64,000 nt of DNA from Helicobacter sp. 16-1353 (GTDB taxonomy: Bacteria > Campylobacterota > Campylobacteria > Campylobacterales > Helicobacteraceae), in NCBI RefSeq assembly GCF_003288815.1, contig NZ_NHYM01000007.1, forward strand, positions 1 through 64,000. Reading direction: 5' to 3'. A program made the translations under genes and the position numbers. Each line of letters begins with the position of its first letter. Within the stretch, counting starts at the first letter, position 1. The notes beneath the pieces were generated by a model that was not told where the DNA came from, made no database searches, and saw only the letters and a list, made by a program, of their open reading frames with translations. This document shows positions 21,657 to 29,653 of this stretch, in pieces.

Positions 21657-22198
21657 TATTTTATACCCAATGAAACTAATTTCTTAAATCCATTTGCTAC
21701 GCTCAAATCGCTTTTCTCAACACTATCTTTTTTAGCATTTAGCAAGAATCCAGAAGTAGGATTCGGCGTAGTGGGGACAAAAACCCAATATGAATCTTCT
21801 AATTCTTTTGTTACAAAGCCCATTACCTTATAATCATTTATCGTTACATATACTACGCCTAAATAATTATCCGCACTTTTTCCAGAAAATAGATTTACCG
21901 CTTCTTTAAGTGTAGAGTAAATAGATGCTATAACGGGAATCTTGCCAATTATAAGCTCTGTGATTTTTAATATTATGGCATCTCTATTTCTCTCCACAAC
22001 AAAACCCAATAAAAAGAAAAATACAATAACCAAAATACAAATTATAGTCGTCGCTAGAAAACTACCAGCTGTGCTTGAAAATATATAATATACAATGCCA
22101 CTAATTGCATTATATACGATTTTTATAAGCCATAATAAGATTATTATCGGTAGTAAGGCTAAGATTCCCTTGAAAAAATATGATAAAAATGTATTCAT
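21656..22198 (-). CDS. DUF502 membrane protein
   Basis: A 180-residue protein with two TM helices near residues 7-35 and 45-70, then the DUF502 signature KIPVIASIYSTLKEAVNLF and VPTTPNPTSGFLL. The family is widespread, with no firmly established function. The start overlaps the comEC stop by four bases and the stop overlaps the prenyltransferase start by one, so all three are translationally coupled. Confidence 0.8.
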   Translation of the reverse strand: MNTFLSYFFKGILALLPIIILLWLIKIVYNAISGIVYYIFSSTAGSFLATTIICILVIVFFFLLGFVVERNRDAIILKITELIIGKIPVIASIYSTLKEAVNLFSGKSADNYLGVVYVTINDYKVMGFVTKELEDSYWVFVPTTPNPTSGFLLNAKKDSVEKSDLSVANGFKKLVSLGIK

Positions 22199-23514
22199 AA
22201 AAAGTCCTTTACAAATAGTAATACTCCATATAGAAAATAGATTCCAGATAGAGCAAGAAGTAATAAATAGATTCGCTTAGAAAACATTGCCATCAACGAA
22301 CAAACTATAAAAATAATAAAAAACCAAAATGGCGTTTGTAATTTTACATTAAAAAAATCATAATTTATAACAGCAAAGAGTGGCTCATCTAAGATTCCCC
22401 CAAATCCTATAATATGCAATAATAACACTAATGGATAAAAAACCACAAAAGCAATCGCTATTAATGGTGATAATAATTGATACAAACTAAATTCATAGAA
22501 AAAATAATGCGCAATGGGTAGCATATTTAAAAATACAATAAAATTTAATAGCAACACAAATTGCCAATTTTTGATTTTTGGAATATGCCTAAGATATAGA
22601 TAAATATAGAATACACCGCTAACAGAAAGCCAGAATCCAATAGAAAAAAAGATTTTAGGAAATAACGCCAATATAAACAAAGCACATATAAAAAGTAGTT
22701 TAAAGCTAAGCAATTTTATCCCAGAATACAGCACAAAAAACCCAAATGCAAACATCACAAATGAGCGTAAAAAGCTAGGATTAAAATCAAGCACAATGAG
22801 ATATAAAAATGCGATAATTAGAATCATAAAATTTAAGTCATAAAATTCATTTCTATAACTAAAATATCTTTTTTGTAGGATTCTATAAATTGGTGCAAAA
22901 ACGATATATAAAGCGAGTGTTAAGATTCCAAGATGGAATCCACTAATAGCAAAAACATGTGCTATCCCAAGAGATGCGGTAACTTCCCTAAGTTTCGGTT
23001 CCATCGGGTGTGCTAAAAATATATTTTTATACAATGAACCAAGCAAATTTATCTCAAATTCACCAGATTTATATAGATATTTATCGCTATGCTGGGAATC
23101 TATATATTCATTAACACCACTTCTATAATCCTTTTTATTGGTTAATGAAATATCAAAACTAATAATAAAACAGCTTTTTAGGTATTGCAAAAAATTACAA
23201 TCCTTACCTAAAATCCCATAAACACGGACAAATCTACCTCTTATATCTCTTAAATCATCTCTTGATATAGTGTAGAATATTTCCCCATCAATGCTTTTGA
23301 GTTTTAATACAAAATAATTTTTATCCGGCTTTTTGTATTGCAATAGCACTTGTGCATTAATATTGACATTTTTTTCTTTTGTGAGATTCTTGTATTTATA
23401 ATATTCATAGGAAATAGAAGCAATAAATATAAGTAAAATAATTATTAGAAAATAAATCCAATCTTTAGTATTATTAATCAAATCTAATTCTAACGAAGAA
23501 TGGATAGTTTTCAT
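22195..23514 (-). CDS. comEC: ComEC/Rec2 family DNA uptake channel
   Basis: Inner membrane channel for single-stranded DNA during natural transformation. Seen are an N-terminal TM helix, an OB-like extracytoplasmic part, and the competence domain with ASLGIAHVFAISGFHLGIL, followed by about eight hydrophobic helices. At 439 residues it lacks the C-terminal metallo-beta-lactamase domain of the long Bacillus form, as usual in Campylobacterota. H. pylori has ubiA - comEC - dnaB in this order; here a glycan block separates comEC from dnaB. Confidence 0.88.
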   Translation of the reverse strand: MKTIHSSLELDLINNTKDWIYFLIIILLIFIASISYEYYKYKNLTKEKNVNINAQVLLQYKKPDKNYFVLKLKSIDGEIFYTISRDDLRDIRGRFVRVYGILGKDCNFLQYLKSCFIISFDISLTNKKDYRSGVNEYIDSQHSDKYLYKSGEFEINLLGSLYKNIFLAHPMEPKLREVTASLGIAHVFAISGFHLGILTLALYIVFAPIYRILQKRYFSYRNEFYDLNFMILIIAFLYLIVLDFNPSFLRSFVMFAFGFFVLYSGIKLLSFKLLFICALFILALFPKIFFSIGFWLSVSGVFYIYLYLRHIPKIKNWQFVLLLNFIVFLNMLPIAHYFFYEFSLYQLLSPLIAIAFVVFYPLVLLLHIIGFGGILDEPLFAVINYDFFNVKLQTPFWFFIIFIVCSLMAMFSKRIYLLLLALSGIYFLYGVLLFVKDFL

Positions 23515-23629: not shown

Positions 23630-26464
23630 TTATTGTTGTAGCAAATTTTCCCAAAGCCCTCTAATCGCCTCTTTGGAGAATTTTTCTTGCACGATTTGCT
23701 TGGCATTTTTGCCAAAATTTTCTCGCATTTTCTCATCGCTCATTAGCATTTTTAGGGAATCTGCAAAGGCATTCAAGTCATTATCGCTCACCAAAAAGCC
23801 ACTTTTTTCATTCTCAATTATATCGCTTGGTCCAGTTTTGACATCAAAAGCCACGCTTGGTAGCCCAAAATATCCGCTCTCTAAAAGCACCATTCCAAAG
23901 CCCTCATAGTGGCTTGTAAGTGCATAAATGCTAGATTTGGCATACTCATTTTGGATATTTTTAGTAAATGGTTTTAGCACTATGGAATCGCCCAAATTCG
24001 CCGCTTTTATTTTTTTCCAAAGCTCATTTTTTAGGATTCCATCGCCTACAATGTGGAGCTGCCACTTGGAAAACTCCGCCTTGAAGCTAGAATCTTGTGC
24101 CAAAATCGCCCAAATATCAATAAGCCGCAAAAATCCCTTTTGATTATCGTCCATTCGCCCAATGGATAGGACGATTTTTTGGCGAGATTTTTGGGAATCT
24201 ATGGGGCTAAAAGGCGTTAGGAAGTTTGGAATTACAGCGATATTTTTATGATATTTCTGCCAAGTTTCTAGCTCTTTTTTGGAGAGAATAACAAGCATAT
24301 CAAAGTAATTATTTCGCTTGTGATAGCGAGTGAAATTTAGATGAATTAGCTTGATATATTTTGCGACTTTGTGGCGGAAAATAGGCGTATAAACCCAGTC
24401 GCTAATGATGAAAAAATCAATATCTTTATAGCGTTTTTTAATATGGAAGCTTAAAAGTGGCTTATAGAGATTTTTAAAATAGAATTTTTTAAGCACATTT
24501 TGCGTCCATTTGGCACTAAAATCACTCTCGCCAATATCGCAATAAAAGCTAAGTTTGACATTTTTTAGACTATAGGGCAGAGTTTTATTGCTTCGATAAA
24601 AGCTTAGAATTTCCACGCTATGCCCACTTTCCGCGAACAAATTCGCTAGATTTACCACCACACGCTCCGCTCCGCCAGTGATAGAAATATCGCCGATAGT
24701 TAGCAAAATGCGTTTGGGCGATTTGTGGGGGTTGGTGAGATTTGGACTATGTGAAACTGTTGGATTATGTGGATTTTCTAAACTCGCTAGATTCTGCGAG
24801 ATTCCTAGATTGCGCGGAATCTGTGTTTTAAGCAAAAATCCCATTACAAAGCCAAACATTATAAAAATCGGCTCTAAGATTATGGGATAAATCGCATCAA
24901 AAACGCTCTGTGTGGCAAGTCCGCAAAGGAAAATAAGAAATGATAATGCGATAAATGTGGTCGTTGAATCTTGCTCTATTAGATTCTGCTTCGGTAGATT
25001 CTTGGGCGGATTTTTGCTAGATTCCACATTTTCCGGAGATTCCACATTTTTGGCAGAATCTAAAACTTTCGTAGAATCTAACATTTTCGTAGAATGCTCC
25101 GGCGAATCTAACCCAAGCGATTTATTTAACGCCCTTTTTGCGCTAACAAACATAAAAATATACATCATTACCACAAGTCCAAAGCCAAGAATCCCAAACA
25201 TAAAAAATAGGCTAACGACATAATTATGCGGAGAATTATAGAGATTTACGCCATCTCTAAGCGAGTAGGTGGAGTTTTGGAGATTTCGCGCTCTGGATTT
25301 TTCCGGATTCTGCCCCGCTTCTTTGTAGTAAATATATAGATAACTCCCAATATTAAAGGGGCTAAGCGTATGTGGGACAAATGGCGAATCTAGGGCGGAT
25401 AGAAAGGTGGACTTTCCCATAGCAATGCGAGAGAGCGAAGAGTGCTCCCAAGTAATCTCGCTTTTGCCGTTTTTTGTGCTTTCGCTCTTGCACTCCAACC
25501 AGCCATTAAAGCAGCCCTCGTCATATTTCCCCATTTCCCTTGGCGGAGTGTTCCACACGATGTGGAAGTTATCAACCATATGGGCGAAATTGTATCTTGG
25601 CGGAAGATTCTTTGAAAACTCATAAGCCACAAAGAAAAATACAACTAAAAATATCCCAAAAATAGCTAGAATCCGCCGCTTATATGGGTATTTCCAAAAC
25701 ACAAAGCAAGAGCAAATCATCGCCATAAATGCCACTAAAAATGAGCGTTCGCTATTTGCGATTATGGCAATTAGGCAGATAGCAATAAGGACTAAAAATA
25801 TTGCCTTTTTCGCCCAGCTTCTAGCGATACAGAATCCCGCCAAAGCAAATGCACTAGGATAAAGCAGCCAGATATTATAAGTAAAAATCGACTGAAAGAA
25901 AAACGGCTCATTGTAGCCAAAGTCCCTACTCCACGAGCTAAAGTCATTTCTAATCCATACAAATATCGTAGCTACCACATTCACCGCACACATATAAACG
26001 AAAACATAAAAAAAGCCTAAAGCGTATTTTCTAGCGATGTAAAAGGCAAAAATATATGAGAGTAAAAACAGCAAAAAATACTTGAAAATATGGGAGTTTA
26101 TCTCCTTTAGCACTTGCGAGAAGCTAAGCGGCATAACGGTATCAAAAACCAGCAATAGCGAGATAAAAACTAGCCCCAAAAAAGTAAAAATGGGAATCTT
26201 AATCGCCCTAAAAGAATCTAACGAAATAAGCCTAAAATGCGTGATTATAAGCACCACTCCGCCAAGTAAAAAGAAAGTTTGCGTCCTTAGAGAGCCGTTA
26301 ATACCGAATGCATACAAAATCATACCGATAGCAAATAGGGCAAATGTGATTATTTGGGACTTTGGAGATGGTGCATTGTGTGGCGTTGGGCTTTGGAGCG
26401 TTACTTGGTGTGGTAGAAACTCTGTGGGCGATATGGCATTGTGTGGCGTTAGGGGCTTTTTCAT
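23630..26464 (-). CDS. O-antigen ligase / GT4 glycosyltransferase fusion
   Basis: A 944-residue fusion. Residues about 40-550 are a polytopic membrane domain of the Wzy_C/WaaL ligase type; the large periplasmic loop carries the typical NSPHNYVVSLFFMFGILG near 410-428. Residues about 586-944 are a GT4 transferase: ITGGAERVVVNLANLF at the N-terminal fold and YEGFGMVLLESG, the E-x7-E donor motif, near 855. Two low-complexity linkers lie at about 450-500 (Asp-Ser/Glu-Ser repeats) and 550-585. The first 35 residues hold a TPHNA-containing repeat. It probably builds and transfers a surface glycan. Richer in G+C than its neighbours; it sits between comEC and the second ligase. Confidence 0.8.
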   Translation of the reverse strand: MKKPLTPHNAISPTEFLPHQVTLQSPTPHNAPSPKSQIITFALFAIGMILYAFGINGSLRTQTFFLLGGVVLIITHFRLISLDSFRAIKIPIFTFLGLVFISLLLVFDTVMPLSFSQVLKEINSHIFKYFLLFLLSYIFAFYIARKYALGFFYVFVYMCAVNVVATIFVWIRNDFSSWSRDFGYNEPFFFQSIFTYNIWLLYPSAFALAGFCIARSWAKKAIFLVLIAICLIAIIANSERSFLVAFMAMICSCFVFWKYPYKRRILAIFGIFLVVFFFVAYEFSKNLPPRYNFAHMVDNFHIVWNTPPREMGKYDEGCFNGWLECKSESTKNGKSEITWEHSSLSRIAMGKSTFLSALDSPFVPHTLSPFNIGSYLYIYYKEAGQNPEKSRARNLQNSTYSLRDGVNLYNSPHNYVVSLFFMFGILGFGLVVMMYIFMFVSAKRALNKSLGLDSPEHSTKMLDSTKVLDSAKNVESPENVESSKNPPKNLPKQNLIEQDSTTTFIALSFLIFLCGLATQSVFDAIYPIILEPIFIMFGFVMGFLLKTQIPRNLGISQNLASLENPHNPTVSHSPNLTNPHKSPKRILLTIGDISITGGAERVVVNLANLFAESGHSVEILSFYRSNKTLPYSLKNVKLSFYCDIGESDFSAKWTQNVLKKFYFKNLYKPLLSFHIKKRYKDIDFFIISDWVYTPIFRHKVAKYIKLIHLNFTRYHKRNNYFDMLVILSKKELETWQKYHKNIAVIPNFLTPFSPIDSQKSRQKIVLSIGRMDDNQKGFLRLIDIWAILAQDSSFKAEFSKWQLHIVGDGILKNELWKKIKAANLGDSIVLKPFTKNIQNEYAKSSIYALTSHYEGFGMVLLESGYFGLPSVAFDVKTGPSDIIENEKSGFLVSDNDLNAFADSLKMLMSDEKMRENFGKNAKQIVQEKFSKEAIRGLWENLLQQ
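26372..26455 (-). repeat. Imperfect direct repeat at the start of the fusion gene
   Basis: GCATTGTGTGGCGTT occurs near 26372 and again near 26437 (plus strand), 66 bases apart, so the reading frame is kept. It encodes the repeated TPHNA residues at protein positions 6-10 and 27-31. Confidence 0.5.
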
Positions 26465-26735
26465 ATCGCCACCTTAGCTGGATATGTAATTGATAATGTG
26501 GCAGATTTTTTATGGGTGGAGAATCTAGCGTTTAAAAAACTTAGTTGGCGGAATCCAAAAGCGAAACTAAAAGAAGCGAATCTAAAGAGATTAAATCGTT
26601 TGTGGAATCCAAAAGTGGAGAATCTAAAAAGGGCGAATAAGTGGGATTTGAATGTGAAAAGATTTAGAAGAAAAAATTTGAGTGGTGTGAAAAATTTTAG
26701 TGGCGAAAGATTCCGCCACTTTTTAAAAGAGTGTT
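26465..26735. other. Spacer between two ligase genes, full of GAATC words
   Basis: No convincing gene. The 271 bases hold many GAATCC/GAATCT and GTGGAATCC repeats. A plus-strand open frame (26498-26821) exists but is built from these words and is antisense to the ligase gene end. May be decayed coding sequence. Confidence 0.5.
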
Positions 26736-28199
26736 TTAGGCTTTGGAAGCTCCATTTGGTGGATTTTTGCGTGAATCTACAAATGATTTTGTGGAATCCG
26801 CAACAAGTGAGCCAAATATAAATGCTAAGCTTAGAGCTAAGAATGTGGATTCTGGGTGTCCTGTGAGTGGGTCGCCACTTGTTCCAGCTCCGATATAAAG
26901 TAGCATAATGCCCCCCCCTAGGATGGCAGAAATTGGGAGTGCAGAGTTAGGCTGAGTTGGGGTAGATTCCGCTAGATTAGTGGATTCCGTGCCGGAATTT
27001 AAAGCGGATTCAATATTAGATTCCGCACCGGAATTTTTGATGGAATTAAAGCCAAATTCCACAGATTCCACTCTAGATTCTGCGGATTCTGCCCTATTTT
27101 TACGCCATATTTTAAGATACTTCCAGCCCATATTAAATACCGCAAAATAGAAAAATAGTAGGCTTAAAAGCCCTATAATCCCACGCTTTGCCATAAAGTT
27201 AAGAATATCATTATGTCTTTTGCCCCGCCCATCGCCGATAGTATTGATATTTTTATCCGTGCCACTTAACTCTTTAATCTCAGTAGTTCGTTCCGCCGCA
27301 CTTTTTGCACTTAGTCCAATTAGTGGCGAAATCCTAAACATCGCTAATGCTTCCTTATACATCACCAGCCTAAGCCCAATTGATGAGCTATAATCGCCAC
27401 TTTTGATTTGCTCTAGTTCGCTCTGTGTGTATTCTAATCTATCGTGTGGCGTGGCTTGTGCGACTATGTAGCCGATAATTCCAATTAATAATAAAAATGA
27501 TAAAAAGTATTTTAGGGCAGTTTTTAGATTTATGATTTTGGTAAAAATACTAAAGATAAATAGCACCACACACGCAAATACAACGCCCAGCACGACGCCT
27601 CTAAGCCCACTTCCCACGACTCCAGAAAATGCCAAAAGCGAGGCAATCAAAAAAACTGCCTTATATTTATGGGAGCTAAAAATAAAAAGGATTAGATTCA
27701 TCACGCATAATGCCCCGCAGATAATGCCAAACTCATTTATCCCGCTAAAGCCCTCTACCCTAGCCCCAGCGTATAATAAATCTGTAAAAATATAAAGTTG
27801 CGATAATGCGATAAGTCCATTGATGATTCCAGCCGCACAAATCGAAAAATACAATATGTTTTTATTGATTTGTGGCTTTGTTTTGAATAATAAAAGAATG
27901 ATAAATGCGAATAATAAATATTTGCTAGGTAAATCTAACTCGCTAAATCCAATTGATAAGCTACTATTTACCAAAAGTGGCGGGAGTGCGGAAAATGCCA
28001 TTAATAAAAATGCGATGAAAAGAAATTTTTCCTCTTTTTCTAGGGCGAAAACTGCGAGTTTTTTTAGCTTTAAAAAAATGTAATATGATAGCAAAACTAA
28101 AAATAGCAAAATGCTACATACTTGCACACTAGGGCGAATCCCACTCGTTACAAAAAACCCCACCACAAGCAATGAAAACAAAATATAAAAAATTCGCAT
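26736..28199 (-). CDS. O-antigen ligase family protein (WaaL/Wzy_C) with G8 tract
   Basis: A 487-residue polytopic membrane protein. About eleven hydrophobic helices and a periplasmic loop with RHNDILNFMAKRGIIGLL (His329), the WaaL catalytic region, plus Arg-rich AGARVEGF and GLRGVVLG segments. Residues about 369-418 form a Glu-Ser-rich linker before the last TM helices. Codons 428-430 (GGG GGG GGC) contain a run of eight G. It is expected to join glycan to lipid A-core or another carrier. AUG 28199 lies 35 bases after the dnaB stop region; transcription probably starts upstream in dnaB or locally. Second ligase-like gene in tandem. Confidence 0.82.
   Translation of the reverse strand: MRIFYILFSLLVVGFFVTSGIRPSVQVCSILLFLVLLSYYIFLKLKKLAVFALEKEEKFLFIAFLLMAFSALPPLLVNSSLSIGFSELDLPSKYLLFAFIILLLFKTKPQINKNILYFSICAAGIINGLIALSQLYIFTDLLYAGARVEGFSGINEFGIICGALCVMNLILFIFSSHKYKAVFLIASLLAFSGVVGSGLRGVVLGVVFACVVLFIFSIFTKIINLKTALKYFLSFLLLIGIIGYIVAQATPHDRLEYTQSELEQIKSGDYSSSIGLRLVMYKEALAMFRISPLIGLSAKSAAERTTEIKELSGTDKNINTIGDGRGKRHNDILNFMAKRGIIGLLSLLFFYFAVFNMGWKYLKIWRKNRAESAESRVESVEFGFNSIKNSGAESNIESALNSGTESTNLAESTPTQPNSALPISAILGGGIMLLYIGAGTSGDPLTGHPESTFLALSLAFIFGSLVADSTKSFVDSRKNPPNGASKA
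26911..26918 (-). repeat. Poly-G8 tract inside the O-antigen ligase gene
   Basis: Eight C on the plus strand, G8 in the coding strand. The length seen keeps the frame. A loss of one G would end translation about 25 codons later; a gain would replace the C-terminal TM region. Runs of this type are classic contingency loci in Helicobacter and Campylobacter. Confidence 0.75.
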
Positions 28200-28234: not shown

Positions 28235-29653
28235 TTAAAGCGGAATCATATCATCTAAATCATTCAATATTTTCGTTTCGCTCTGCTCGGTAATATGGCT
28301 TTCAATGCTAACAAATCTTGTATATTTAGTATCCATTTTAAGCTTTATTGTGCCAATAGGTCCATTTCTATGTTTGCCTATTATTAGCTCAGCCTCTTCA
28401 TTATCCTGCTCTACTAATATCTCTTCTTTTGGAGGTGGTTTACCCTCTTTTTTTGCTTGTTCTATTTTTTCTTTCATATCTCTACGCTTATAAACTGCAT
28501 CACGATAAATAAATAAGATAATATCTGCGTCCTGCTCTATTGAGCCTGATTCCCTTAAATCACTCAAAATCGGGCGTCTATCGCCTCTACTCTCTAATGT
28601 CCTATTTAATTGACTCAATGCAAGAATAGGAATATCTAATTCCCTAGCTAGAATCTTCAAACCTCTAGAAATCTCGGCAATCTCTAAATGCCTGTCCTTA
28701 TTCCCTATGCCAGACATTATTTGCAAGTAATCCACAATAGCTAAAGATATACTAGGGTCTTTTGACTTTAGCTTTCGCAATTTACTTCTTAAATGCGTTA
28801 TATCCAAGCCACCGCTATCATCAATATAGAATTTCCAAGATTCTAATTTGTCGCAAGTAGATTGAAAATAATTCCACTCTTTATCATCTAAATCACCTAT
28901 GCGAAGTCGCTGTAAAGGAATATTAGCGATGGACGACATCATTCTTAAAACAATCTGTTCTGCTCCCATCTCAAGGCTGAAAAATGCAACTCCTTTACCA
29001 CTTTTTAGTGTGGGTATTAACATATTTAATGCTAAGGAAGTTTTCCCCATAGCAGGGCGAGCCGCTAAGATTATCAACTCTCCTTTATTAAATCCAGTGG
29101 TATATCGATTTAATTCAGGGAATCCTGTATCAACACCTATTAAATAGCTATTACCTCGTTCTTTTAGCTCTTTTATCATCGAAATCACAGAAGAAGTAAC
29201 ATCGCCAAAAGTCCTAAACTCCCTATTTGATGATTTGCTTTGGAGATTGAAAATCTCGCTTTCTAATTCATTTATGATTTCTCTTGAGGGGAGATTTATA
29301 TCAATACTTTTTTCTTTAATAGTATTTGCTAGGTGATGTAATTTTCGTTTTAGGGATAAATCCTGAATCTCTTTTACATATGATTTAATGTCGATTATAG
29401 GGGCAGTTGATATAATCTCAAAAATATCTTCATCGATATTTGCTTTAGATGATAATTTTTTGCGGATAAACTCCTCATTAATAGGCAAATCAAGTCGTTT
29501 TAGATTCCCCATTGTTGCAAAAATAATAGAGTGATTATGGTATCCAAAATCACTAGGTCCTAACTCATCTTCGATAGTATCAAAAATATTAGGGTCAAAT
29601 AATATCGCAGATAATAAGGACCTCTCAATTGGGATATTAAATAAATCGTGCAT
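28235..29653 (-). CDS. dnaB: Replicative DNA helicase DnaB
   Basis: Hexameric 5'-3' helicase of the replication fork. The N-terminal primase-interacting domain starts NIPIERSLLSAILFDPN; the RecA-like domain has Walker A ARPAMGKTS (198-206), AFFSLEMGAEQIVLRM, Walker B-like LAIVDYLQIMSG, and SQLNRTLESRGDRRP with the arginine finger. Length 472 is normal. The start shares one base with the ppa stop (TAATG). Confidence 0.96.
   Translation of the reverse strand: MHDLFNIPIERSLLSAILFDPNIFDTIEDELGPSDFGYHNHSIIFATMGNLKRLDLPINEEFIRKKLSSKANIDEDIFEIISTAPIIDIKSYVKEIQDLSLKRKLHHLANTIKEKSIDINLPSREIINELESEIFNLQSKSSNREFRTFGDVTSSVISMIKELKERGNSYLIGVDTGFPELNRYTTGFNKGELIILAARPAMGKTSLALNMLIPTLKSGKGVAFFSLEMGAEQIVLRMMSSIANIPLQRLRIGDLDDKEWNYFQSTCDKLESWKFYIDDSGGLDITHLRSKLRKLKSKDPSISLAIVDYLQIMSGIGNKDRHLEIAEISRGLKILARELDIPILALSQLNRTLESRGDRRPILSDLRESGSIEQDADIILFIYRDAVYKRRDMKEKIEQAKKEGKPPPKEEILVEQDNEEAELIIGKHRNGPIGTIKLKMDTKYTRFVSIESHITEQSETKILNDLDDMIPL

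Follow-up and report, generated by a model that had tools for sequence, protein, structure and literature searches.

A poly-G tract late in a Helicobacter O-antigen ligase gene is a probable contingency locus, and one of its alternative frames ends on the start codon of a second ligase-family gene

We found a G8 tract close to the 3′ end of a waaL-type O-antigen ligase gene in the window, by which we mean the whole 64-kb stretch of DNA analysed here (contig C30 of the 1.9 Mb, 32-contig source genome G000), and we consider it probable that this tract is a poly-G contingency locus, a C-terminal switch that would disable the encoded ligase (WaaL1, or ligase 1) and possibly pass ribosomes to the gene that follows (gene 2). 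The present assembly holds the G8 state, in which WaaL1 is complete. The first-pass annotation had described eight G in frame at codons 428-430 of an O-antigen ligase gene, and had predicted that loss of one base would bring a TAG about 25 codons later and remove the last transmembrane segments. Inspection of the sequence and its open reading frames agreed with this description, the shortened product being 453 aa long, with the TAG 23-25 codons past the tract and with the C-terminal helices predicted to go. The accompanying suggestion of phase-variable ligation held up in part: the tract is one of a set of poly-G runs spread over the whole genome, with G8 peers in glycan genes, but the reading was incomplete in that only the -1 outcome had been weighed. 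The +1 outcome, which was missed, is the one retained in a second species. The features of the locus are collected in Table 1.

Table 1. Features of the ligase locus (positions in the window).
Feature	Position	Strand	Remarks
waaL-type O-antigen ligase gene (WaaL1)	26736..28199	-	487-aa ORF, complete in the G8 state; Pfam Wzy_C E 2e-15
G8 tract	26911..26918	-	in frame (phase 0), WaaL1 codons 428-430, GGG GGG GGC; C8 on the + strand
GATTC-rich in-frame WaaL1 insert, about residues 363-425	26920..27110	-	36.6 GATTC per kb; immediately 5′ of the tract; missing from aligned homologues
TAG ending the frame with one G fewer	26837..26839	-	codon 454; 453-aa product
TGA ending the frame with one G more	26461..26463	-	579-aa product; overlaps the ATG of the next gene as ATGA
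271-nt spacer 3′ of the waaL stop	26465..26735	-	stop-free in the extra-G frame
Second Wzy_C protein, fused to a GT4 glycosyltransferase (gene 2)	23630..26464	-	944 aa (Pfam); ATG at 26464, AAGG 7 nt upstream
dnaB	28235..29653	-	upstream neighbour; common to G003 and G004
comEC-like competence gene	22195..23514	-	at the other end of the glycan locus; likewise shared

On the strength of its Wzy_C domain (Pfam PF04932, 57 bits against a cut-off of 31.7) and its WaaL sequence profile, we assign WaaL1 to the O-antigen ligase family, as the first-pass annotation had done. A WaaL1 profile built from 12 homologues matched PDB entry 7tpg with an E value of 4e-29 over 340 residues, and the conserved HN pair was aligned. 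WaaL1 was the sole Wzy_C protein found in the congener G003 and in five sampled WaaL1-bearing genomes of other genera, and its position as the lone protein of this kind favours a ligase over a polymerase. The G8 tract sits 88% along WaaL1 (codon 428 of 487), and the alignment with 7tpg together with a low-confidence model places it where the penultimate C-terminal helix is predicted to begin; the AlphaFold model, made from four sequences, had a pLDDT of 54.6 and helices at 423-440 and 449-478, and is too weak for more. While WaaL1 is like WaaL (PDB 7tpg and H. pylori waaL) in its Wzy_C family, its profile match and its HN pair, it differs in carrying a GATTC-coded insert of about 60 residues and the G8 tract, and in being the first of two Wzy_C genes arranged in tandem.

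The motif that encodes this insert is common in the surrounding DNA. GATTC/GAATC occurs at 6.45 per kb in the window, about 3.2 times the expectation from base composition, and fills spacers as well as in-frame protein inserts, being densest in the waaL insert and in the spacer 3′ of the gene (Table 1); nearly always it has A or G on its 5′ side and T or C on its 3′ side. The excess was 2.6-fold in G004, another congener, and 1.3-fold in G003.

Since a change in tract length shifts the reading frame of this surface-structure gene, we predicted the products of all three frames and obtained 453, 487 and 579 aa, that is, a long product in every frame from a tract at the 3′ end, which is the pattern of C-terminal phase variation. 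We propose that replication slippage at the tract would give three heritable states. G8 would yield the complete ligase, and G7 or G10 a ligase cut at about 453 aa, with the last two helices gone and activity presumably lost. In the G9 state the last helices would be swapped for an unrelated tail: the extra-G frame has 149 open codons and runs through the waaL stop and the spacer to the ATGA of gene 2, where the ribosome would stop on the start codon of that gene, so that G9 would be predicted to give up ligase 1 in exchange for translation of gene 2 by coupling, with a corresponding change of phenotype. The hydrophobicity maximum of the G9 tail is 1.34 in the window (no strong segment) and 1.42 in G004 (borderline), and given this borderline segment G9 in G004 might leave ligase 1 active. 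A survey of 96 distinct tracts of at least 8 in G000, out of about 142, revealed six with two downstream frames open for at least 35 codons; among the tracts sampled, waaL was the only one that combined two open frames with an unused frame ending on a start codon.

The WaaL1 profile matched 58 of 121 genomes of the family and, after remote weak matches in G101, G027 and G022 had been dropped, 55 genes were examined. A G run of at least 8 was found in two of these, in the window and in G004, where the tract is again G8 at the same aligned site and in the same phase in a WaaL1 protein that is 50% identical. The third congener with WaaL1, G003, has GGC TGT GGA at the site (residues GCG, with Gly partly retained and the helix conserved) and neither tract nor open frame. 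In G004 the extra-G frame is open for 61 codons and crosses a 64-nt spacer unlike that of the window in sequence, and it also ends on the ATGA of the next gene. The same two homologues out of 55 were the only ones in which the extra-G frame reached the next start; in 51 of the 53 others it closed within the gene, and the other two were uninformative, one running into the contig end (L109) and one being a frame-broken gene (L124). The notion that the extra-G frame is ancestral was discarded, as homologues that lack the tract keep to the frame used with G8 and reach the same C-terminal helices. In L095 and L101 the other alternative frame was open beyond the stop, without a start.

Other waaL genes showed irregularities of their own. 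The L124 gene, from another genus (G071), is frame-broken within a stretch that holds a G7 run (836-986), and the waaL homologue of G067 contains a C7 run. The waaL of G062 (L123) is also frame-broken, with no G tract at that stretch. G001, of the same genus and 99% complete, had no Wzy_C match at all, and from this we suggest that O-antigen ligation may be absent there.

These comparisons bear on the question of whether it is by mere accident of how the genes are laid out that the extra-G frame ends at the next ATG, in which case the locus would show plain C-terminal phase variation, with ligase 1 complete or damaged and nothing further; we regard this as unlikely, though it is a reading with precedent. 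In H. canadensis (Snyder et al. 2010, PMC2823697), the part of the account available to us describes poly-G phase variation in which 3′ tracts alter C-termini, and at HCAN_0660 an alternative frame merges with the next coding sequence. The waaL tract is like these in being a poly-G tract late in the gene at which a length change alters the C-terminus, but the listed 3′ tracts of H. canadensis are at least G10, no O-antigen ligase stands among the listed genes, and whereas HCAN_0660 fuses frames, the extra-G frame of waaL ends on the next start as ATGA, and does so in two species. Also in favour of a layout accident, ATGA overlaps are common near poly-G genes of G000, and the open extra-G frame occurs in two species only. 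Against it, when the ligase end was recoded synonymously and the spacer shuffled, such a frame arose with a probability of 3.3e-4 in the case of the window and 2.2e-4 in that of G004, values that contain a factor of 1/3 for phase and, by assumption, one of 0.5 for an A following the ATG, and that are post hoc, the frame having been noticed before the test, with two frames and hindsight uncorrected and with two species that share ancestry. The GATTC-rich composition of the spacer lowers the frequency of stops, which the shuffle partly allows for. Among 124 alternative frames in a control of 62 same-strand neighbour pairs from eight loci, the next start was reached by these two only and by none of the 122 others, and closure of the frame within the gene in 51 of the 53 other homologues likewise argues against an accident. 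On balance we lean slightly towards a coupled G9 frame that is functional, not accidental.

The gene that would receive the ribosomes differs in form between the relatives: its G004 counterpart is unfused and encodes a Wzy_C protein of 467 aa, with the GT4 gene standing separately after it, and G003 has the GT4 gene only. A search by sequence revealed no PDB relative of the downstream Wzy_C protein of G004. Strong relatives of the second Wzy_C protein (E at most 4e-61) were present in 14 of the 121 family genomes, namely the window, G004 and 12 genomes of genera g10 and g13. Among the matches listed, none of these 12 had a strong WaaL1 match, and the WaaL1-profile match of G027 (8.9e-5) lay within its own second-type protein. 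Each of the five g13 genomes yielded the second-type protein as its only Wzy_C protein, and the seven g10 genomes had two or three Wzy_C proteins each, none of the WaaL1 type. As a separate observation, four of the five g13 relatives lie in long frames of 820-1234 codons. Among the matches listed for the 121 family genomes, then, strong matches to both ligase-family genes were confined to the window and G004, in tandem in both, and the tract thus occurs in the genomes in which the two ligase-family genes come together; if two of the 55 homologues were drawn at random, the tandem pair would come up with a probability of 7e-4, but the two genomes are related. A scan for viral contigs found nothing.

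The tandem arrangement raises the further idea of a ligase swap, with one tract setting which of the two ligase-family enzymes is well made, so that a single cell could exchange the enzyme by which its surface glycan is attached instead of just losing it; we offer this tentatively and think it rather doubtful. Coupling and ligase swapping may both take place, and we infer them post hoc from the sequences of two species. Gene 2 may not need coupling, given the sequence resembling a ribosome-binding site upstream of its own start.

Whether the tract is of the variable kind was addressed through the distribution of G runs. In the window the numbers of G/C runs were 11 of length 5, none of length 6 or 7 and one of length 8, the G8 tract being the sole run above 5; dinucleotide shuffles of the window produced at least two G7 matches in 27 of 100 cases, and the window alone shows no excess. 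Across the whole genome, counting exact G runs on both strands, there were 67 G6, 4 G7, 20 G8, 70 G9 and 33 G10, with 142 runs of at least 8 and 19 of at least 11 (by arithmetic from a 7-mer total of 494 and a 9-mer total of 206). The distribution is bimodal, and the dip at G7 and peak at G9 indicate a separate poly-G population, of which G8 forms the lower shoulder. By these genome-wide counts the tract is longer than chance allows, and a chance run in a GC-poor genome was ruled out on the same distribution, despite the failure of the window shuffles to reject chance. Lying at the short end of its class, G8 may switch more slowly than G9-G12 tracts. MutL was not found in G000, while the same model was positive in 14 of 14 control genomes. 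Elsewhere in this genome, clusters of consecutive genes each carry a G9-G12 tract of their own (G000:C2:1-20000, L130 and L131; G000:C12, L133; G000:C29:3500-20000, L066 and L134).

The 19 other exact G8 tracts of the genome fall in frame within a gene (7), at a frame break that separates an upstream piece from a long frame downstream of it (6), at the 5′ border of a long frame (2) or away from any gene (4). Nine of the 15 gene-linked tracts belong to glycan-enzyme families (GT2, GT4, GT61, PMT_2, FkbM methyltransferases and sugar-nucleotide dehydratases), and the remainder comprise one sulfatase, one TonB receptor and four without a family match. The frame-break cases point to slippage of tracts this long in G000, though assembly error is possible at single loci. 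Taken as a claim by itself, slippage as the driver of the waaL tract appears very likely to us.

Slippage need not act on DNA, and the tract could serve fixed recoding, in which -1 ribosomal frameshifting or transcriptional slippage on G8 would put a constant fraction of ribosomes into the extra-G frame in every cell and tie the output of gene 2 to that of gene 1 without any change in DNA. The general form of slippery sequences for frameshifting is X XXY YYZ, and G GGG GGG fits it; moreover, exactly G8 in the same phase occurs in both species, and -1 slippage leads into the conserved frame. The region 3′ of the tract, by contrast, has no stable structure (z from -1.8 to +1.2, unshared between the two species), and the genome is rich in poly-G tracts, many of them at frame breaks, resembling switches at the level of DNA, which makes fixed recoding improbable in our judgement. 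We give hardly any credence to the view that GGG GGG GGC merely spells ordinary Gly codons of a membrane helix, neither variable nor selected: the partly retained Gly and conserved helix of the tract-less G003 would fit it, but GGG makes up 17% of Gly codons, GGG-GGG accounts for one of the 54 Gly-Gly pairs counted over 40 ORFs of the window, namely the pair at this site, the 1.9 Mb genome has 4 G7 against 20 G8 runs, and tract and phase are kept in a species with 50% protein identity.

The proposed poly-G contingency locus can be set beside known systems. In C. jejuni and H. pylori, poly-G tracts are usually 5′ or central and give ON/OFF expression. The waaL locus shares with their contingency loci a G homopolymer of at least 7, a surface-glycan gene and a bacterium poor in mismatch repair, but differs in that its tract comes 88% of the way through the gene and one of the off-frames is open. 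In the portions of the literature accessible to us, the PhasomeIt cut-off is 7 G and C. jejuni NCTC 11168 has evidence of variation for all tracts of at least 8 (PMC6321876); a review table classes 6G-8G as mutable, with 1e-7 to 1e-5 mutations per division, and longer runs as hypermutable, the values listed for C. jejuni loci being 4.2e-4 to 4.1e-3 (PMC4235727). H. pylori X47 deleted for waaL failed to colonise mice, according to the part of that report that we could consult (PMC5371381). Our literature search, with subscription journals mostly outside its reach, found no account of a phase-variable waaL or of tract-driven coupling. The tract itself is a further case of known poly-G switching; what is new is the retained alternative frame that joins two ligase-family genes.

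Poly-G switches mostly govern a single decorating enzyme. One that acts on the ligase would alter the O-antigen as a whole in a single step and, if it is true that the extra-G frame delivers ribosomes to gene 2, one tract would set two genes oppositely. Our analysis suggests that the off-frames of contingency genes are worth checking for kept openness, rather than being written off as junk.
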